Assembly: GCF_001547995.1 (NCBI RefSeq)
Contig: NZ_AP014690.1
Location: forward strand, 2,477,001 to 2,541,000
Length of the DNA: 64,000 bases
From: Asaia bogorensis NBRC 16594
GTDB lineage: Bacteria; Pseudomonadota; Alphaproteobacteria; Acetobacterales; Acetobacteraceae
Direction: 5' to 3'
The position numbers and the translations under genes were made by a program. This document shows, in pieces, positions 53,671 through 63,337 of the stretch (the stretch's first letter is position 1; every line of letters begins with the position of its first letter). Below the pieces are notes generated by a model that saw only the letters and a program-made list of their open reading frames with translations, had not been told where the DNA came from and searched no databases.

Positions 53671-55194
53671 CTAGCGCGAGAAGGCCTTTGCAAGGATACT
53701 TTGCTTTGCCGCATCGATGGGCAAGGCCGTATCGAGCATCGCCACACCCTGCCACCCTGCGCCCATCGCCGTGTAGAGCGCCACGGAATCGTGCAGTCTG
53801 GCCGTACGGGCCACTGCCTCACGGTCCTGAGCCCCCAGCAAGGTGCGCTGCGTCGTAAGGACATTCAGATAATCGGTCAGACCCGCTGCATAGAGCCGCC
53901 TTGCCCTGTCAGCTGCCAGACCACTATCGGTTGCTGCCTGATGCAGCTGGGCGACATAATGGTCGTTATGCAGCCATGACGTCATGGCGTCCTCGACCTC
54001 GCGGAAAGCATTGAGCACGGTCTTGCGATAGGTCAGACGGCTGGCCTCGGCCCGTGCGCGCGCCTCGACCACCTGCGAGGTGAAACGCCCCCCGTGCATG
54101 ACCGGCAAGGTTGCCAGCATCATGAAGGACCAGCTCATCGCATTGACCTGAAACGCCTGATACATGGCGGAGGCATTCGGGTTGAATGTCAGGGGAATCG
54201 AGAATTTGGGGTAGAGCTGGGCTACGGCCACGCCGATGCGAGCCGTTGCTTCGGCATAGCCCCGCTCGGCGGCACGAATATCGGGGCGATTGGCCACGAC
54301 GATTGAGGGCAATGTGGCCGGAAAGCGCGGCATGACCGGCAGGGAGGCTGTCCCATTGGGCAATGCCTCAAGTTCTGCCTTGAGATCGCCCGGCATATCG
54401 CCCAGCAGGACGCTTACCCCGTGGCTCAGCGTGTCGATCTGGGCCTTGAGAGGTTCGAGCGAAGCCAGTTCGCTATCGAGCTCGCTCTGCGCCTGTGCGG
54501 TCTGAAGCGTGTTGCCTATGCCTTCCAGATAGAGACGTTTGGTCAGATCGACCTCGCTCTGGGCATTCTTGACGTTGGCCTGCGCGATCGAGAAACGCAA
54601 TTGCGCCCCCCGGAGCGAGATATAGGCGCGTACCAGATCCGAAAGCAGCGTCATCAACGTGGCGCGTCGGTCCTCGATGCTCACATCGATGGCGCGTTCG
54701 CTCGCCTCGACCTCGCGCCTGATGCGTCCGAACGCATCGATCTCCCAGCTGGCCTGGGCACCATAGGTCAGGACCGATGCCTCTGGCCGGTTCTGAGGAT
54801 TGCCGGGTCTGATCGGCCAGTTGTCGATATTTATGGAATACCGACTTGAGCCACCGCCTGCGTTGACATCAAGCTGCGGGTACCAGGCGGAGGCTGCCTC
54901 TTCACGCATGGCGCGACCGGCGATAATACGCTGGTCGGCAATGAGGAGGTCATAATTGCCCTTGATGGCCTGCGCCACGAGCCGGTTGAGCAGCGGATCG
55001 TTATACTGCCCCCACCACTCCTTCATCTCGGCCTCAGTGCGGGCGATTTCCTCTGCGGTGGCCGCGTGATCGGTCTCGACGAAGCCATCGGGCAGTTTCA
55101 TGCGGTCGGGCTTGTAGGCGGGCCCGACCGTGCATCCGGCAAGAAGCGAGGCAGCAAAAGTGAAGGCGCAAAGCCTGCGGGGGAGAGACACCAT
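53671..55194 (-). CDS. Outer-membrane efflux lipoprotein, NodT/OprM family
   Basis: 507 residues with a lipobox (AFTFAASLLAGC) and the usual N-terminal TVGPAYKPD. WWGQYNDPLLNRLVAQAIKGNYDL and YGAQASWEIDAFGRIRREVEASERAID are family hallmarks, and long coiled-coil stretches fit the TolC-like tunnel. Forms the outer-membrane exit for the adaptor encoded two bases upstream. The partner pump would normally be a FUSC or RND protein, which is not adjacent. Confidence 0.92.
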   Translation of the reverse strand: MVSLPRRLCAFTFAASLLAGCTVGPAYKPDRMKLPDGFVETDHAATAEEIARTEAEMKEWWGQYNDPLLNRLVAQAIKGNYDLLIADQRIIAGRAMREEAASAWYPQLDVNAGGGSSRYSINIDNWPIRPGNPQNRPEASVLTYGAQASWEIDAFGRIRREVEASERAIDVSIEDRRATLMTLLSDLVRAYISLRGAQLRFSIAQANVKNAQSEVDLTKRLYLEGIGNTLQTAQAQSELDSELASLEPLKAQIDTLSHGVSVLLGDMPGDLKAELEALPNGTASLPVMPRFPATLPSIVVANRPDIRAAERGYAEATARIGVAVAQLYPKFSIPLTFNPNASAMYQAFQVNAMSWSFMMLATLPVMHGGRFTSQVVEARARAEASRLTYRKTVLNAFREVEDAMTSWLHNDHYVAQLHQAATDSGLAADRARRLYAAGLTDYLNVLTTQRTLLGAQDREAVARTARLHDSVALYTAMGAGWQGVAMLDTALPIDAAKQSILAKAFSR

Positions 55195-55196
55195 GA

Positions 55197-56108
55197 TCAG
55201 AGATGGTTCTGCAGCCAGGTGGTCAGACGGCCCCGCTGCCCCTGTGGCGGGGTGCCTACCGTGACCGTGCAGGTCATTCCGGCCGCCAGAATGACCTCGG
55301 GCGGCACGCGATCAAGATGGATACGCACGGGAATACGCTGCGCCAGACGGACCCAGGTGAAGATGGGATTCACATCCTGCAGTCCCAGCTTGTCCGGCGA
55401 TCCGTTCTGGTCGTTGATACCGCGGGCAATGGAAACGACATGGGCCGGAATGATCTCGCGGTAGCCCATGAGCTTCACGCGGGCGACGTCGCCCACATGC
55501 ACGCCCCACATCTTCGTTTCCTCGAAATAGGCGTTGATCCAGAAACTGTCAGCATCGATGACCGCCATGCGGGACTGCCCCTCATGCGCATAGTCACCCA
55601 CGCGCAGATTGAGGTTGGTTACGTAACCTTCAACCGGCGAGTAGACGATGGAGCGTTGGAGATTCAGCCTCGCCACATCGAGCGTGGCACGCGCTGCATT
55701 GACCGCATCCTCCTGCGTCTCGACATTGGAATTGTAGATTTCCTGCTCTTCAGCCGAGACGATACCGCTTAATCCCATGCGACGCTTGGCATCGTTGCGA
55801 CGCAGCTTCAGATCTTCCTCCGCGCTCGCCAGATGGGCCTCCGCCTCCTTGATCGCGAGGCGGAACCGCACCGGGTCGATCACGAAAAGCGGGTCGCCAC
55901 GATGAACGAAATCATTGTCGTGCACCGGCACACTCACCACCGTCCCCGACACTTCAGGCGCTGCATCGACCACATACACGCGAACGCGCCCATCACGCGT
56001 CCAGGGTGCGATCATGTAAGTCTCCCACAGCGTGTAGCCCAGCAGGATCGTCACCCCGAGCACCGCGAATGTCAGAAAGACCCGGATCAGTGTACGAGCG
56101 AGCAACAC
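55197..56108 (-). CDS. HlyD/AaeA-type membrane-fusion protein
   Basis: 303 residues. One N-terminal membrane helix (LIRVFLTFAVLGVTILLGYTLW), a lipoyl half-domain (AAPEVSGTVVSVPVHDNDFVHRGDPLFVIDP), a helical hairpin, the second lipoyl half (GYVTNLNLRVGDYAHEG) and a beta-barrel domain. Closest in layout to AaeA, the adaptor for aromatic carboxylic acid efflux. Two bases separate it from the NodT gene. About 140 bases upstream lies the DUF1656 gene that normally accompanies it. Confidence 0.9.
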   Translation of the reverse strand: MLLARTLIRVFLTFAVLGVTILLGYTLWETYMIAPWTRDGRVRVYVVDAAPEVSGTVVSVPVHDNDFVHRGDPLFVIDPVRFRLAIKEAEAHLASAEEDLKLRRNDAKRRMGLSGIVSAEEQEIYNSNVETQEDAVNAARATLDVARLNLQRSIVYSPVEGYVTNLNLRVGDYAHEGQSRMAVIDADSFWINAYFEETKMWGVHVGDVARVKLMGYREIIPAHVVSIARGINDQNGSPDKLGLQDVNPIFTWVRLAQRIPVRIHLDRVPPEVILAAGMTCTVTVGTPPQGQRGRLTTWLQNHL

Positions 56109-56706: not shown

Positions 56707-57138
56707 TTACCGCCGGGTGAAAATATTGCGCAGAATCTCGAAGAGTTGCTTGCCTGTAAAGCGACCAATAGGGCCGACAAGTAACCCGGCAATGGTCGAC
56801 AGAGCCAGTGTCTGCTTGAATTCGATCATCTTGCGATCACGACGCAGTCTGGCCTCGAATTCGACAGGATCAGCGATATTGCGCGTGCCGAGCAAGCCAA
56901 AGATGATGACAAAGAGCAGGTCGAGCCCCAGCACCGAACACGCTGAGGCGAAAGCCGAGAAGTGGAGCACGCTGAAAGCGAAGGCCCACAGGACAGCGTG
57001 GAATGACACAAGCGCGAACAGCCCGAAGATGGCAGCGATGATGAAGTAGGCCACGCGGCGGCCGATACGCATTGCGACGCGCTGCAGAACTTCGCCCTGA
57101 GCCTGAAGGGCTTCCTGCCCGACATCAATGACCTTCAT
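56707..57138 (-). CDS. Small membrane protein (phage-holin/DUF-like)
   Basis: 143 residues from the ATG at 57138. Two long hydrophobic segments (VAYFIIAAIFGLFALVSFHAVLWAFAF and ACSVLGLDLLFVIIFGLLG) separated by a short loop, then a basic C-terminal half (EFEARLRRDRKMIEFKQTLALSTIAG). It resembles the superfamily annotated 'phage holin family' that often lies next to DUF883 proteins in proteobacteria, and this is so here. Not evidence for a prophage. Function unknown. Confidence 0.6.
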   Translation of the reverse strand: MKVIDVGQEALQAQGEVLQRVAMRIGRRVAYFIIAAIFGLFALVSFHAVLWAFAFSVLHFSAFASACSVLGLDLLFVIIFGLLGTRNIADPVEFEARLRRDRKMIEFKQTLALSTIAGLLVGPIGRFTGKQLFEILRNIFTRR

Positions 57139-57291
57139 GGAGATTCGCAAGCCTTTACGGTGTGGTCGTGCCAGTGCTGGACGTGCCAGAGGCGAACCCG
57201 CCAGAGATCAACCCGGGCAGGGTAGCCGCCGAACATCCAACCCTGAAACGGATTGGAACAGGAGGCCGCCTTGCCCGAGAGAGAAGACAGC

Positions 57292-57570
57292 CTATTTGGA
57301 GACACGTCCTGCAATAAAGCCAATGACGGCAGAAATCAAAACTGCAGCGATGGGGCGGGCGCGTACACGAGCCTCGGCATTGTGAAGCTGCACGTCAGTG
57401 ATTTCTCGTGCATTGGCCACGGCCTGATCGGCCCGTCCGGCAACATCCAGCAGTGCGGGGTTGATACGATCCTTGAGCAGCTGCTCCAGCTGGTCCTTCA
57501 GGCTGTCGATCTGTTCCTGAGCCGATTTGCTGGCATTGTCGACAGACTTCTTGACGTCAGTTTTGCTCAT
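57292..57570 (-). CDS. DUF883 (ElaB/YqjD-like) protein
   Basis: 92 residues from the ATG at 57570, after GAGGAG. A soluble coiled-coil part (SAQEQIDSLKDQLEQLLKDRINPALLDVAGRADQAVANAREI) is followed by RARPIAAVLISAVIGFIAGRVSK, the single C-terminal membrane helix and RVSK-type end typical of ElaB/YqjD. Those E. coli proteins tether ribosomes to the membrane in stationary phase. Same strand as the holin-like gene, 150 bases apart. Confidence 0.78.
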   Translation of the reverse strand: MSKTDVKKSVDNASKSAQEQIDSLKDQLEQLLKDRINPALLDVAGRADQAVANAREITDVQLHNAEARVRARPIAAVLISAVIGFIAGRVSK

Positions 57571-57644
57571 GTCACAACTCCTCATACGGTCTGAACCGCA
57601 TCTTATGGTTTCGGATATAACGTTCTGAGTTCAGGCGAGGTTTC

Positions 57645-58754
57645 ATGTCAGGTTCATCGGGGGACAATCGGTCGCCCCTGTCGGTTCATTCGCTCGCGCT
57701 CACCCCGGGGGCCGACGGCTTTTCGCTCAACCTCGTGAAGGGCGAGGCTTTGAGCCTGCTTGCTGAAACCCCCGGAACACTGAGCCTCTTCTGCGATATC
57801 CTGGGCGGGTTTGTCGCACCTGCCGCCGGACGCGTGGCGTTTGCAGGTCTGGACGCCAGCGATACCCTTCCGGGGCAGCGCCCTATCGTGCTTGTTTCCC
57901 GTCGCGAGCCTGCTTTTGGTCATCTCGGGGTCGCTGCCAATATCGCTTTTCCGCTTCGTGTACGTGGCATGGCCGCCCATGAGATCCGTGCAAGCGTGAG
58001 CCATTTTCTCGCCCTGCTCGGTCTCGATGGCTTTGCCTCGACGCGAGCCGACACCCTGCCACCGGAATATGATGTCAGGCTCAGACTGGCGCGCGCGCTC
58101 GCATGCAACCCATCTGTGCTGGTGCTTGACGATGTCCTGTCCGGCCTTGATCTGCGTGCGATTGGCCGGACACGGCAATTGATCGCGAAGCTTCACAAGG
58201 CTCTCGGACTGACCTTGATCTACGCCGCCAATGATCGTGAGGACGCTGTATGGCTTGGGGGACGCATTGCCCTGTTCGATCGCGAAACCCTTGTTCAATG
58301 TGCCAGTGCCAGCACCCTGCTTGACCGTCCGGCAACCCCATGGGTCGCCTCCCTCTTTACAGAAGCCAATCTGCTGACAGGTCGCGTTCTGTCGATTGAG
58401 GACGATATCGCCACGATTCATCTTGCCTGTGGCGGCGTGGTGGAAGCTCTGGCCGATGCCGATCTGCAAGATGACAGCCTTTGCGTGCTGTGCATCCGCC
58501 CTGATCGTATGACGCCTCTTTTCGCCGCATCCGGCGGGGATGAAGAAGGCCCCGCCCCTCTTGTTGCAACGCTCCAATCGGTACTGCATACCGGCGAACA
58601 GATGCGCTTGCGGCTACGCCTTTCTGACGGGGTAGAAATCGAAATGCGGCGTCCGCTCATCCAGTCGACGCGGCAGATGACCCCCGGCGCAACACTACAA
58701 CTCGCATGGCAGGCCAGTCAGGCTGTGGCCTTTCCCATGAAAGACGATCTATAA
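57645..58754 (+). CDS. PotA-like ABC ATPase lacking all catalytic motifs
   Basis: 369 residues that follow the PotA/MalK frame from end to end, including a C-terminal TOBE-like domain after residue 240. Yet every nucleotide-handling motif has been lost: the Walker A position reads LLAETPGTLSL (no GKT, about residues 38-48); the Q-loop LVSRREPAFGHL has no Gln; the LSGGQ signature is LPPEYDVRLRLARAL; Walker B is LVLDDVLSGLD with the catalytic Glu replaced by Asp; the H-loop His is Asn in AANDREDA. The frame is intact, with no stop or shift. It is likely unable to hydrolyse ATP and could act as a structural or regulatory protein. It begins a tightly packed cluster. Confidence 0.8.
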   Translation: MSGSSGDNRSPLSVHSLALTPGADGFSLNLVKGEALSLLAETPGTLSLFCDILGGFVAPAAGRVAFAGLDASDTLPGQRPIVLVSRREPAFGHLGVAANIAFPLRVRGMAAHEIRASVSHFLALLGLDGFASTRADTLPPEYDVRLRLARALACNPSVLVLDDVLSGLDLRAIGRTRQLIAKLHKALGLTLIYAANDREDAVWLGGRIALFDRETLVQCASASTLLDRPATPWVASLFTEANLLTGRVLSIEDDIATIHLACGGVVEALADADLQDDSLCVLCIRPDRMTPLFAASGGDEEGPAPLVATLQSVLHTGEQMRLRLRLSDGVEIEMRRPLIQSTRQMTPGATLQLAWQASQAVAFPMKDDL

Positions 58755-59866
58755 GAGGCGTTCCGATCAATTTCCCTCAACAGGAAGGCTGTTTCCTGCA
58801 CGCGTCACTCTCCCCTTCCAGACCTGACCGCCGGTCCCATGCTGCCTTGAACAAGGCCGCGTGGATGCTGCTCGTGACGCTGTGCCTGCCCGTACTGTCG
58901 ACCGCTTTTCCCCTTCAGGCTGCCGCAGCAGGGCACCATGTCCATCATGCTGCCCATCATGCCAAGACCAGAAAGCTCTCCCACGCAGCCACGTCACAAC
59001 TCGGTCTGGCCGTGCTGTCAGGCAGTCTTGATGCCCATTCCCTGCTGATGCCCGACCAGCCCTATCCGCTCAAGGAATGGGATGGCAGCCTAACGACGCT
59101 GCGTGACGCTGCTCTGGCACACAAGCCGGTATGGCTTGCAGCCATGATCGACAACACCACCCTGTATGCCGCCTGTCGTGACGGTATAGTGCAGACGCTT
59201 CCAGCGCTCCCCATCAGCGATCGGTCACGCAGCACACCGGGCTCACCCTGCGGCATTGCCGCCGGGGAGGAGAGTATCGTCCTGGCGTGGGACCGAGGCA
59301 GACTTGGTGACGACGCGCCAAACTGGGCCGATTTCTGGGATATTGCCCGCCATCCGGGCAAACGTGCCCTGCGTCTCGACCCCAGAGGCACGCTTGAGAT
59401 AGCTCTGATGGCTGATGGTGTTGCACCCGGCGACGTCTATACCGTTCTGGCCTCTCCCGCAGGGACAGATCGCGCATTTCGCAAGCTCGATCAATTGCGC
59501 CCCTATCTTGTCTGGTGGCGCACACCCGCAGAGGCGACCCGCATCATGAGCAGCGGCGCTGCCCTGATGCTTTCAACCCCCCATGACCGCTTGGCCGATC
59601 TGGGAGAGAAAGCCACCTTCGCCGCGCAATGGCGTCAGTCCCTTCGCCAGAAAGTGTCGTGGGCCATACCGCGCAACGTACCTCCCGAGCAGGCAGAGGC
59701 TGTGATCAGGATGCTGCGCGACCAGACCCCGCTGCATGACGACACGCAGGATGCCCCGCAGGATGGACGCGACATTCGCGCTTTGTCCGTGAGCGACAGT
59801 TTCTGGGCCATCAATTATTATGCGCTTCAGAAACGCTTTCAGACCTGGCTGACCGCAGCGCCATGA
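58706..59866 (+). CDS. PotD-like periplasmic binding protein
   Basis: Up to 386 residues; the start is uncertain. The ATG at 58706 overlaps the upstream gene by 49 bases, while the signal peptide (AAWMLLVTLCLPVLSTAFPLQAAAAG) suggests a TTG at 58850 or the ATG at 58865. WADFWDIARHPGKRALRLDPRGTLEIALMADGVAPGDVYTVL, LVWWRTPAEATRIMSSGAALMLSTP and the terminal SFWAINYYALQKRFQTWL are those of polyamine-type (PotD/PotF) binding proteins. The N-terminal lobe is short and atypical. Paired with a dead ATPase and a permease stub. Confidence 0.75.
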   Translation: MAGQSGCGLSHERRSIRGVPINFPQQEGCFLHASLSPSRPDRRSHAALNKAAWMLLVTLCLPVLSTAFPLQAAAAGHHVHHAAHHAKTRKLSHAATSQLGLAVLSGSLDAHSLLMPDQPYPLKEWDGSLTTLRDAALAHKPVWLAAMIDNTTLYAACRDGIVQTLPALPISDRSRSTPGSPCGIAAGEESIVLAWDRGRLGDDAPNWADFWDIARHPGKRALRLDPRGTLEIALMADGVAPGDVYTVLASPAGTDRAFRKLDQLRPYLVWWRTPAEATRIMSSGAALMLSTPHDRLADLGEKATFAAQWRQSLRQKVSWAIPRNVPPEQAEAVIRMLRDQTPLHDDTQDAPQDGRDIRALSVSDSFWAINYYALQKRFQTWLTAAP

Positions 59867-60291
59867 GTCTCGCCGCTCTCGCCCTTGTTGCCGGATGGGC
59901 CACCTGTTTGATCCTGCTGGCTGTCCTGTCCAGAGGAGCGTCCCGTCTCACCGGATTTTTCCATCTGAACACAATTTTTACCCATAGCGCCTACGCCGCA
60001 GCCATAGCGGCACTCTGGCTTGGAAGCGAAGCTTCACACTGGCCCCACTATTCGGGATGGTTTCTGAGCGGCTTTCTGACTGCGCCATTTTGCATCCTGC
60101 CCATATGCCAGCGCCTGGCAGGAAAGGTGGCAGGACTGACGCGGGCTGCCTCCGGCCTTGGCGCTGGCCCGCGCGCGCGCTTGCGTCTGCTCTGGTTTCC
60201 CTTGCTAAGAGGCCCTATCCTGCTCTCTGGCCTGATTTCCCTTGCCACCCTGACCTCTTGCCTCATTCTCGGCAGGTTCACTCATGTCTGA
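59863..60291 (+). CDS. Truncated ABC permease-like membrane protein
   Basis: 142 residues, half the length of a PotB/PotC permease. Four hydrophobic segments are visible. Residues about 93-125 (TRAASGLGAGPRARLRLLWFPLLRGPILLSGLI) align with the EAA loop that permeases use to contact the ATPase (EAAxxLGAxPxxxFxxVxLPLLxPGIL), though the leading Glu is now Arg. The ATG overlaps the upstream stop (ATGA), and its own end overlaps ycgN by eight bases. It could be an eroded permease or a small membrane adaptor kept for another purpose. Confidence 0.55.
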   Translation: MSLAALALVAGWATCLILLAVLSRGASRLTGFFHLNTIFTHSAYAAAIAALWLGSEASHWPHYSGWFLSGFLTAPFCILPICQRLAGKVAGLTRAASGLGAGPRARLRLLWFPLLRGPILLSGLISLATLTSCLILGRFTHV

Positions 60292-60787
60292 TCCCGAGCA
60301 TCCTTTCTGGCAGGTGATCCCCTTGTCTGAGATGACAAAGGCGCAGTGGGAATCGTTGTGTGATGGCTGCGGCAAATGCTGCCTGCACAAGCTGCGCGAC
60401 GAAGAGACCGACGCGATCCATTTTACAAATGTCGCGTGTCGTCTGCTCGATCTGGAAACCTGCCAGTGCTCGCAATATCCCACGCGGTTTCGCAAGGTGC
60501 CTGACTGTGTCTCGCTTACACCGGAAATTCTCGCCGATATCGACTGGCTGCCGCCAAGCTGCGCCTATGTGCTGATCCGTGACGGACAGGACCTCCCCGC
60601 CTGGCACCATTTGCGCACGGGCTCGGCTGACTCTGTGCACGAAGCGGGAATCTCGGGAAAAGGCCGCATGATTAGCGAGCGCGAAGCCGGGATGCTGGAA
60701 GACCATATCGTTGAGTGGCCGGCGGAAATTCCCCCCGGCGTGGCGAAAAAACGGCGCAAGCGGCCTTCAACCAAACGACGCTGGTGA
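60284..60787 (+). CDS. ycgN: YcgN-family cysteine-cluster protein
   Basis: 167 residues. WESLCDGCGKCCLHKLRDEETDAIHFTNVACRLLDLETCQCSQYPTRF holds the CxxCxxCC cluster and further cysteines of the UPF0260/YcgN family, likely a zinc or iron-sulfur site. C-terminal basic tail (KKRRKRPSTKRRW). Function not known. It overlaps the permease-like gene before it and the protease gene after it (GTGA). Confidence 0.92.
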   Translation: MSDPEHPFWQVIPLSEMTKAQWESLCDGCGKCCLHKLRDEETDAIHFTNVACRLLDLETCQCSQYPTRFRKVPDCVSLTPEILADIDWLPPSCAYVLIRDGQDLPAWHHLRTGSADSVHEAGISGKGRMISEREAGMLEDHIVEWPAEIPPGVAKKRRKRPSTKRRW

Positions 60788-61455
60788 CAGAACCCGCCTA
60801 CCCGGTGACGTGGCGACACTCTGCGCGTGCCAAGCGCATTTCGCTTCGCATCGACGGAGCCAACCGCCAGGTCGTGGTGACATGCCCCCGCCATTTACCG
60901 CTGTCCCATGCGCGACGCTTTCTGCTCACTCATGACAGCTGGGTGCGCGAACGACTCAATGCCCTGCCAGCTGTGACCGCCCTTGTTCCGGGAAGCACCA
61001 TCCTGCTTGATGATTACCCGGTCACCCTGATTCATGCGCCGGAGCAAAGACAGAGCGCCGTTATGGAAAAGGGTAGCCTACGGATCAACGGTCCCATTGA
61101 GCGCTTCGAGCAACGTGTTCTGGTTTTCCTCAGGCATCGGGCCGGGTTGATGCTCCCTGCCGAACTCGCTCATGAGGCAGAACGAATGTCGTGCCAGATC
61201 TCGCGTTTCGCTTGCAGCAATGCCCGCACGCGCTGGGGGAGTTGCACACGAACCGGACGGATTATGCTGAACTGGCGCCTCATTATGATGCCCGAATCTG
61301 TTCGCCGTTACGTGATGGTGCACGAACTCGCCCATCTGACGCATTTCGACCATAGCCTGGCTTTCTGGACTTTGGTGGAGCGGTTTCATGAACACCGCAA
61401 GCCGGCACAAGCCTGGCTCAGGCAGCATGGTGCAGCGCTGATGGCGCTGGGATAA
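60784..61455 (+). CDS. YgjP/SprT-like zinc metalloprotease (DUF45)
   Basis: 223 residues from a GTG at 60784 that overlaps the ycgN stop; a frame start at 60715 lies inside ycgN. RAKRISLRIDGANRQVVVTCPRHLPLSHARRFLLTHDSWVRERL is the family's N-terminal part, and CSNARTRWGSCTRTGRIMLNWRLIMMPESVRRYVMVHELAHLTHFDHSLAFWTLVE carries the HExxH zinc motif plus the third ligand. Probably a cytosolic M48-like protease. It ends the five-gene cluster, about 65 bases before the tRNA. Confidence 0.9.
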   Translation: MTEPAYPVTWRHSARAKRISLRIDGANRQVVVTCPRHLPLSHARRFLLTHDSWVRERLNALPAVTALVPGSTILLDDYPVTLIHAPEQRQSAVMEKGSLRINGPIERFEQRVLVFLRHRAGLMLPAELAHEAERMSCQISRFACSNARTRWGSCTRTGRIMLNWRLIMMPESVRRYVMVHELAHLTHFDHSLAFWTLVERFHEHRKPAQAWLRQHGAALMALG

Positions 61456-61520: not shown

Positions 61521-61606
61521 GCGAACTTGGCGGAATGGTAGACGCACGAGACTTAAAATCTCGAGTCCGTAAGGGCGTATGGGTTCGAGTCCCATAGTTC
61601 GCACCA
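61521..61606 (+). tRNA. tRNA-Leu(UAA)
   Basis: 86 bases including an encoded CCA. Acceptor stem GCGAACT / AGTTCGC, D-arm beginning GGCGGAATGG, anticodon stem CGAGA/TCTCG with loop CTTAAAA (anticodon TAA, 61554-61556), a long variable arm as in class II tRNAs, and TTCGAGT in the T-loop. An integrase follows 88 bases downstream, so the 3' end is a probable attachment site. Confidence 0.95.
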
Positions 61607-61693
61607 CTATCTCATTGAAATTAATGGTTTTTTTGGCTCTCAACGCGTCAAACCGGGGTTTTTCCGGATTTCTTCCCAGAATGGGAAATTTTG

Positions 61694-63337
61694 ATGCTGC
61701 GTCTGATAGGGTCCCGCTACCATTTTCGCAGGGCCGTGCCGAAGGATATCCAGCCTCTCCTGAGGCGGTCCGAGATCTCCCTTTCGCTTGATACTTCGGC
61801 TAAACTCGAGGCTCGCAGACGGGCGGCACAGCTATATGACCGGACCGGACAGTTCTTCGATAAGGTGCGCGCCATGAGTGACTCGAAAGCCCGACCGCCC
61901 ACACCAGACGAGATCATCACTTTTTATGAGAGCTTCGTTCGCGATACCGAGTCTGCCCATGCCATCGAAATGCGCCTGCTCGAACTCAAGCATGAGAGGG
62001 AAATGACAGAGGTTCAGGTACGTTTCCTCGAGTTCAACAACCTCGTGACGCGTTTTCTCTCCATCATCGGCCCCTATCTTGCCAAGGATACAGAGCGGCT
62101 CGAAACGATGCGGAAAATCGTGAAGAAGGATCTGCCTGAAGCGCGTGCGGAGGCCGCTAATCTGGCCGCTCAGGTCAATCTCCTGAAAAGCATCGTCGTC
62201 GACATTGGAACCGCCACGAAGAGCGAACCTATCGCCCCAGTGCCGCTGACTGCTGAACCAGACCCACGCAAACTATCCATGCCGAGGAAAAAGCTTGCAA
62301 GCTCTGGTTCCCGCTCGAAGCTTCTTACAGTAAGCATGGCTGCGGAGCGTTTTATCTATCCAGATACCAATCGCTCAGAGGATACGAAACGCGGCACGCG
62401 CAAAGCGCTTAACCTGTTCATCGATGCCTTCGGCGACATGGAGGTCGAACGGATTACCGGCGAGACGGCAGGCGAGTTCCGTGATCTCCTCTTCCGCCTT
62501 CCCTCCACCCATGGCAAGGAACGCAACGGCCGCTCGATCCGTGACGAGGTCGCTCGCGCTGAAACCGAGAAGCTCGAGACCATCAGCGCCAAGACGGTCA
62601 AGAACCACTTCTCTCGTCTCTCCGCTCTTTGGGCGCTCCTGTTGCAGCGTGATCTGGTGTCACGCAATATCTGGGCAGGCTGGGACTACCATGTCACGAA
62701 GAAGGTCGAACGACGCTGCTTCAGCGACGCTGAGCTGGCGCAGCTCAGCGCGACACCATGGCCGAGCCGCATGCCCTCTGCACGCACGGCAGCCGCAATC
62801 ATCAATATTGCTGCCTATACAGGTATGAGACTGGGTGAGATCTGCAACCTGCGATGCGCCGATATCGAGATGATGGAAGGTATCGCCTGTTTCCAGGTCC
62901 GCCCGCACAGCGAGAGCGGGTGGTCCCCAAAGACACAAGCTGGCACACGCATTGTACCAATCCACCCTGAGCTGATTGCAAAGGGTATTCTGTCTTTCAT
63001 GAAGCCCGATCAGGTCTGGCTGTTCCCGGATCTGGTCGTCACAAAAACGGGCGACCGCTCAGCGAGCTTCTCTCAGGCCTTTGCGCGTCTGCGAAGCAGA
63101 GCCGGTCTCCCCAGGGAAGTCTGTTTCCACAGCTTCCGGCACACAGTCTCGACCAAGCTGCGTAATACCGGGCATGAACTACGCGAAATCTGGATTGATC
63201 GTCTCCTGGGGCATGAAGCGACGCATCGCAGCCAGGGGACCATGAACTACACCTCCGCAATTGACGTCCCTAATCTCAAGCGTGTTGTCGAGGCAATCAG
63301 TTACGAGACGCTTGATCTAGCGATTACCGACAGGTGA
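61694..63337 (+). CDS. Tyrosine recombinase / phage-type integrase
   Basis: 547 residues from the ATG at 61694. The N-terminus (RLIGSRYHFRRAVPKDIQPLLRRSEISLSL) is the DUF6538-type arm-binding start. The catalytic domain shows TGMRLGEICNLR with the first Arg near residue 379, HSFRHT (His-x-x-Arg, about 479-482), LGHEATHRSQG and the nucleophile in MNYTS near 519. All active-site residues are present. Integrates DNA at tRNA 3' ends; direction and distance from tRNA-Leu fit an island whose left end is here. Confidence 0.94.
   Translation: MLRLIGSRYHFRRAVPKDIQPLLRRSEISLSLDTSAKLEARRRAAQLYDRTGQFFDKVRAMSDSKARPPTPDEIITFYESFVRDTESAHAIEMRLLELKHEREMTEVQVRFLEFNNLVTRFLSIIGPYLAKDTERLETMRKIVKKDLPEARAEAANLAAQVNLLKSIVVDIGTATKSEPIAPVPLTAEPDPRKLSMPRKKLASSGSRSKLLTVSMAAERFIYPDTNRSEDTKRGTRKALNLFIDAFGDMEVERITGETAGEFRDLLFRLPSTHGKERNGRSIRDEVARAETEKLETISAKTVKNHFSRLSALWALLLQRDLVSRNIWAGWDYHVTKKVERRCFSDAELAQLSATPWPSRMPSARTAAAIINIAAYTGMRLGEICNLRCADIEMMEGIACFQVRPHSESGWSPKTQAGTRIVPIHPELIAKGILSFMKPDQVWLFPDLVVTKTGDRSASFSQAFARLRSRAGLPREVCFHSFRHTVSTKLRNTGHELREIWIDRLLGHEATHRSQGTMNYTSAIDVPNLKRVVEAISYETLDLAITDR

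Follow-up and report, generated by a model that had tools for sequence, protein, structure and literature searches.

A conserved importer-derived locus of acetic acid bacteria with an ATPase homologue that has lost its ATP-site motifs

Introduction

PotABCD-type ATP-binding cassette (ABC) importers for polyamines, opines, γ-aminobutyrate (GABA) or 2-aminoethylphosphonate (TIGR01187 PotA, TIGR03258 PhnT, SBP_bac_8) have two full permeases. Each ABC site needs the Walker A motif of one subunit and the signature of the other. This report concerns a three-gene locus, A-B-C, in a 64,000-nucleotide stretch of the Asaia bogorensis NBRC 16594 genome (NZ_AP014690.1, forward-strand positions 2,477,001 to 2,541,000). 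The whole stretch is called the window, and its first letter is position 1. The locus resembles PotABCD-type importers in that A carries ABC_tran and TOBE_2 domains, B is PotD-like and C is homologous to the middle of the permeases of intact transporters. Unlike in those importers, the window A is without the Walker A lysine, signature, Q-loop, catalytic glutamate and H-loop, and one stub stands in place of two full permeases. The genes are as follows.

57645..58754, forward strand: A, a PotA/PhnT-like ABC ATPase homologue with a TOBE domain and its catalytic motifs lost (pseudo-ATPase).
58706..59866, forward strand: B, a PotD-like exported solute-binding protein; the true start is perhaps 58847 or 58865.
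59863..60291, forward strand: C, a permease stub of 142 residues with the EAA/coupling loop kept.

Altered catalytic residues are likewise kept in working proteins among the heterodimeric exporters with degenerate sites (TM287/288, BmrCD, TAP and MRP1) where one site of the pair is described as impaired and ATP use continues. Unlike in those exporters, lysine, signature and glutamate are lost together here, and the subunit is of importer type. A transporter fold that serves gating or regulation instead of pumping is described for SUR1 with Kir6.2 and for CFTR. SUR1 and CFTR still bind nucleotides, unlike what is expected of A, which is without the ATP-site motifs. The C-terminal regulatory (TOBE) domain of MalK docks regulatory proteins. 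A likewise has a C-terminal TOBE domain, kept about equally in dead and intact copies, but unlike MalK it has no maltose-system context. No description of the A-B-C locus was found in the open-access literature, and passages of PMC12041372 hold nothing on the A-B-C genes.

Results

Loss of the ATP site in protein A

A matches Pfam TOBE_2 and ABC_tran, both above cut-off; its best NCBIfam matches, PhnT and PotA, are far under their cut-offs (PhnT 148 vs 499). Residues ~10-200 are confidently predicted by AlphaFold as an ABC nucleotide-binding domain (NBD), and the NBD core model matches CysA/PotA. The ABC fold (NBD core model) and the TOBE_2 domain (Pfam) of a PotABCD-type ATPase subunit are both present in A. 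Alignment with intact relatives places AETPGTLS where they have the Walker A sequence GPSGSGKT, LVSRR at the Q-loop VVFQS, LPPEY at the signature LSGGQ and AAND at the H-loop VTHD. Walker B reads LVLDDV in the window instead of VLLDEP. A prior sequence-only reading had declared every catalytic motif of A gone; this holds for the Walker A lysine, the Q-loop glutamine, both signature glycines, the Walker B glutamate and the H-loop histidine, and fails for the Walker B aspartate, which remains. Because A has neither Walker A nor the signature, it would form no complete site either as a homodimer or with an intact subunit. With no composite site possible, an ATP-driven pump is excluded as far as sequence can exclude one. 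A is predicted neither to bind nor to hydrolyse ATP as ABC ATPases do.

The same motifs were scored in 100 loci from relatives, chosen by similarity to A, which with the window make 101. Eight of L054-L062 are from Asaia or Swaminathania, and the ninth, a distant match in Roseburia, was left out. The nearest named relatives are Asaia bogorensis GD-01 (74% identical to A), other Asaia (63-66%) and Swaminathania (59%). A YcgN-like gene lies within 3.5 kb downstream in 78 of the 101 loci, and all 78 have an ElaB-like or YqjE-like gene upstream. These block-linked loci span 17 genera of Acetobacteraceae. None of the 78 has the Walker A lysine or the Walker B glutamate; in the remaining 23 loci the lysine is kept in 21 and the glutamate in 20. 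Glutamine at the Q-loop and histidine at the H-loop each survive in 2/78, the first signature glycine in 1/78, the second in 2/78 and the signature serine in 21/78. Of seven catalytic residues, none is left in 54 of the 78 copies, one in 20 and two in 4, and the Walker A lysine position is most often leucine (65/78). These 23 loci divide into 20 that are intact at the counted residues, two dead ones (L045, where the contig ends, and L165) and a partial one (L051). The alignment check that the sequence-only reading had proposed thus shows losses common to relatives in 78/78 block-linked copies from 17 genera. The contrary picture, intact homologues in close relatives and a lone decay in this strain, was not seen in the loci analysed; the intact copies there come from other Acetobacteraceae genera, and some of them adjoin permease-like genes.

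Genome-wide searches gave the same pattern among the closest matches. In the 397 family genomes, 77 of the best 78 matches (E up to 5.1e-83) were read, G364 being left out at a contig edge; all 77 are dead, 76 of them block-linked and the other being L045. At 1e-55, a threshold that includes intact paralogues, 227 of the 397 genomes match. Among 289 genomes of the class the window alone matched at 1e-72 (just four of the listed genomes belong to Acetobacteraceae), a line that would miss divergent dead copies such as L052 (3.3e-69).

Selection on the three genes

The ratio of nonsynonymous to synonymous substitution rates (dN/dS) was calculated with YN00. Among the 78 loci, 97 pairs have an A identity of 78-98.5%, and the 45 closest (84-98%) were analysed; the pairs share species and are therefore not independent, and the counts short of 45 include uncalled C frames. 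The median dN/dS is 0.067 for A (44 pairs, range 0.03-0.16), 0.071 for B (45 pairs, 0.04-0.26), 0.177 for C (25 pairs, 0.06-0.33) and 0.044 for the YcgN-like neighbour (38 pairs, 0.01-0.11). Values of ~0.07 for A and B are not near 1, the outcome that the sequence-only reading had named as contrary to its view, and values this low argue against decay.

A decaying importer, a pseudogene set with frames open by chance, would account for the missing catalytic motifs and the short permease. It would also fit two draft genomes: A is split over two frames in G001, and B looks frame-broken near its N-terminus in G007. Both breaks are taken as assembly errors because neighbouring conserved genes are broken in the same drafts, and a third draft, G006, has a break in its YqjE-like gene. 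Against decay stand the dN/dS of ~0.07, the absence of stops inside the A or B matches of all 78 loci, the presence of C in 78/78 and the single clade common to 17 genera. Decay is therefore barely credible: dN/dS and breadth rule out a pseudogene, and the 78 loci rule out chance or a single-strain event. As had been claimed from the window, the frames of A, B and C are open over the listed coordinates, and the claim that the locus is retained is well supported by the motif losses in 78/78 copies of 17 genera together with the dN/dS. A is almost certainly catalytically dead and under selection.

The conserved block

The genes adjoining A-B-C are listed here.

60284..60787, forward strand: YcgN-like CxxCxxCC protein with a putative zinc/iron-chelating domain (Pfam PF03692).
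60715..61455, forward strand: YgjP-like metallopeptidase (Pfam PF01863), the next gene of the conserved block.
57292..57585, reverse strand: small membrane-anchored protein that we take to be ElaB/YqjD-like, divergent to A and ~60 bases upstream.
56707..57150, reverse strand: membrane protein of the Holin-X superfamily, presumably YqjE-like (Pfam PF07332 at 27.8, just below the cut-off of 28.4).

No Pfam family scores above cut-off for the protein at 57292..57585. The CxxCxxCC gene downstream of C, overlooked in the sequence-only reading, is part of the block, and its start at 60284 overlaps the C stop by 8 bases. The YcgN-like tblastn match contains a stop codon in L094, L109, L149 and L153. 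Farther upstream, genes for an outer-membrane efflux protein and an HlyD/CusB-type membrane-fusion protein adjoin each other (53671-56108, reverse strand), placing an efflux system upstream of the block. Downstream, a tRNA-Leu (taa) at 61521-61606 is followed by a tyrosine-recombinase gene at 61691 (Phage_integrase and DUF6538). The region 61521-63337 looks as at the start of an integrated element running toward the window end.

Protein B

B was described from the window as PotD-like, and the searches agree: it matches SBP_bac_8 at 3.8e-16 (Pfam), and the closest solved binding protein is 4i1d (3.8e-26). Its PDB neighbours are, by name, polyamine, mannopine, agropine and GABA-sensor binding proteins. 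With a signal peptide judged by eye, these matches identify B as an exported solute-binding protein. Many columns reach a weighted frequency of 1.00 over the 78 loci, including W207, R220, R227, E231, D237, Y245, W270 and W271, and W211, R227 and Y267 are stricter in the 78 than in 15 comparison loci, which include L051 and L165.

The start of B at 58706 is doubtful because the first residues match in another frame than the rest of B in L034, L035, L037 and L042. Alternative in-frame starts at 58847 (TTG) and 58865 (ATG) lie past the A stop and, by eye, just before the signal-peptide-like stretch. Coupled starts, claimed for all three genes, thus stand for C, whose start overlaps the B stop by 4 bases, and are in doubt for B, since they depend on the overlap of 58706 with A. 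After the signal-like region, a histidine-rich stretch (58928-58990) occurs in Asaia and some other genera, not all. A metal-binding role is conceivable and would be of interest next to the CxxCxxCC gene.

Protein C

C has no Pfam match, and its NCBIfam matches (PhnV 0.0019, PotC 0.052) are far under cut-off. A profile built from 67 C proteins was scanned on 17 intact loci. It matches permease-like frames in 13 of the 17 (best 5.5e-8, weakest of the 13 2e-3), and on this profile evidence C is permease-derived. The alignment covers the permease middle and leaves out the N-terminal part and the last helices. In L048, L125, L126 and L129 the profile gave no permease-like match beside A-B within the stretch fetched. 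C is 109-190 residues long in the 67 called frames, and the profile detects it in 78/78 block-linked loci, 11 of which a cruder frame search had missed. Between B and the next gene there is only C, with no sign of two full permeases of ~6 helices each; permeases elsewhere in the genome were not sought.

The EAA-type loop, with L99, G100 and P113 aligned in 67/67, is apart from P75 (0.99) the best-kept part of C; R94, A96, A101 and W111 reach at least 0.90. The stub with an EAA-like loop recognized in the window is thus borne out by the loop residues and by the permease matches. A weak structural model has 4 helices, and its top PDB rows are MalFGK2 and PotABC chains (E 1.0 and 1.2). A profile of nine C proteins found nothing among PDB sequences.

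A passive channel or facilitator, in which B and C pass solute without ATP and A is a gate or plug, comparable to CFTR as an ABC protein that became a channel, would suit a selected membrane protein with 4 modelled helices beside a conserved B. C is however small and the least constrained of the three proteins (dN/dS 0.18), and outside P75 its conservation is strongest in the cytoplasmic coupling loop, not in a membrane path. A channel is improbable on these grounds.

Parts conserved in dead A copies

Conservation of A in weighted columns was compared between 80 dead copies (the 78, L045 and L165) and 20 intact ones. Over all positions it is 0.55 in dead vs 0.75 in intact copies. It falls from 0.99 to 0.39 at Walker A, from 1.00 to 0.56 at the signature, from 1.00 to 0.47 at the H-loop, from 0.91 to 0.59 at the Q-loop and from 0.95 to 0.71 in the Walker B strand. 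Residues 88-110 behind the Q-loop (0.65 dead vs 0.84 intact) rank second to the Walker B strand in the dead NBD, and the TOBE stretch 241-275 scores 0.62 in dead vs 0.60 in intact copies. Newly conserved positions in dead A are R87 (0.80), P89 (0.94), G126 (0.94), A186 (0.98), C283 (0.93) and F293 (0.94).

In importers the segment behind the Q-loop forms part of the ATPase groove into which the EAA loop docks. Both of the parts that would touch are therefore retained, one in A and the other in C, and an A-C complex has likely been kept, to judge from this conservation.

The docking-type surfaces kept in A and C would also suit spare parts of a working transporter, A pairing with an intact ATPase or C and B serving an intact permease elsewhere. 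The window genome has 17 other ABC ATPase matches, the best 25-30% identical to A. Dead sites are known in heterodimeric exporters, and the intact A-B pairs with no adjoining permease-like match (L048, L125, L126 and L129) may use permeases elsewhere. Two points make this alternative unlikely: A lacks Walker A and the signature and so completes no site with an intact subunit, and C aligns to the permease middle alone, without the N-terminal part and the last helices. A as the ATPase subunit of a mixed dimer is disfavoured, both halves of the composite site being absent.

Phylogeny and intermediates

A tree of A was built with the motif columns removed. The main tree (IQ-TREE, quick mode) holds 95 of 118 rows, 17 dead and 6 intact rows being left out. 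In it the 63 dead copies form one clade with a Shimodaira-Hasegawa-like approximate likelihood ratio test (SH-aLRT) value of 99. L051, L173/L175 and L176-L179 lie beside this clade (87 for the whole group), with the intact copies outside. FastTree on all 101 recovers the same dead clade with a support of 0.70, or 0.99 once L051 is added.

Another 17 loci comprise 10 intact ones and 7 whose motifs deviate. Walker A is kept in six of the seven (GPAGAGKS, GPAGAGKT and similar), with the Walker B glutamate in five of these six; L179 could not be scored at Walker A owing to alignment gaps. None of the six retains the signature glycines or the H-loop histidine, though L177 and L178 do have a Q-loop glutamine. 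L177 contains one TGA. An ElaB-like or YqjE-like neighbour is present in L051, L175, L176, L178 and L179 and none was seen in L173, L177 and L183, of which L177 and L183 are at or near contig ends. B is beside A in L051, L175, L178 and L183; no B match adjoins A in L173, L176 and L179. L175 has a C-like stub after B (5.9e-6), and none was found in the other six intermediates scanned (L051, L173, L176, L178, L179 and L183). In L175 and L183, A-B is followed by a lipid transport-like gene, presumably of MlaE/STAS type, instead of the YcgN-like gene.

Two intact loci adjoin an ElaB/YqjD-like gene (29% match): in L184 the intact A and B are followed by permease-like frames, and in L048 no permease-like match adjoins the intact pair. 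They were considered as the ancestral state and rejected, as the tree groups them with other intact copies and not next to the dead clade. Their ElaB-like neighbour may be a coincidence or a trace of ancient linkage. Because L183, whose motifs are lost in part, is placed apart from the group of dead copies and intermediates, partial motif loss may have happened twice. The intermediates tentatively suggest that ATP binding disappeared only after the permeases had been shortened or separated and the signature and H-loop had gone. This order is tentative because the branches are long and the support values quick.

These loci also bear on whether each protein acts alone, A as a soluble TOBE ligand binder or regulator, B as an orphan binding protein and C as an accessory membrane protein. 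The partly lost L173, L176 and L179, with no B match beside A, fit such independence, as does L048 with intact A and B and no adjoining permease-like match. In the dead clade, however, A, B and C occur together in 78/78 loci. The importer parts corresponding to those kept in A and C touch each other, so what has been kept in the two proteins is what is in mutual contact in importers. Independent functions are accordingly a poor prospect.

Discussion

A, B and C are probably the selected remains of a PotABCD-type importer that is no longer an ATP-driven pump and serves as a sensor or scaffold; we hold that role, too, to be the more plausible one. A retains its ABC fold, its TOBE domain and, behind the Q-loop, the surface for docking of a permease loop, and C is a short membrane piece with the docking loop preserved. 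B probably captures a small ligand in the periplasm and then engages C. The ligand state would pass through the coupling loop to A, which would act as a cytoplasmic docking/TOBE platform for a partner and may give a signalling output. Candidate partners, by position only, are the YcgN-like, ElaB-like and YqjE-like proteins. A complex that passes ligand binding outside to A inside would fit the docking loop, docking surface, TOBE domain and B core that have been kept.

Several observations weigh against a sensor or scaffold. The Walker B aspartate is kept in 55/78 block-linked copies, and among the NBD stretches compared the Walker B strand is kept best, which speaks against the idea that the ATP site as a whole was simply released from constraint. 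In the AlphaFold model of A, the predicted local distance difference test (pLDDT) score of the TOBE half is below 50. The C model is weak (mean 66.9), with no significant PDB match, and the dN/dS of C is ~2.6x that of A. The putative A-C interface is itself deduced from conservation. Five Acetobacteraceae genomes of 1.9-2.7 Mb (G021, G061, G063, G064 and G072) gave no hit at 1e-55; parts of the family can therefore do without the block.

Pseudokinases and pseudoproteases are well known. Among ABC proteins, exporters with a single degenerate site and regulators of ABC origin are already known, and both still use nucleotides. What appears new at this locus is that almost every ATP-site motif of an ABC importer, together with its permease, has been lost under selection; no described case of this kind was found in the open-access literature.

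With such graded relatives the order of loss can be tested; the signature and H-loop appear to go first and ATP binding last. L051, L173, L175-L179 and L183 are living intermediates suited to testing ATP binding without hydrolysis. It is conceivable, though we would not assume it, that in acetic acid bacteria a whole ABC importer was converted on a single occasion into a signalling complex independent of ATP, with the binding protein on the outside, a permease part in the membrane and the pseudo-ATPase on the inside. If so, living relatives might preserve the stages, from an intact pump, through copies with Walker A kept and the signature and H-loop lost, to the loss of everything; we put this forward with equal reserve. 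For annotation, genes at this locus in acetic acid bacteria labelled "spermidine/putrescine ABC transporter ATPase" are unlikely to encode transport ATPases.

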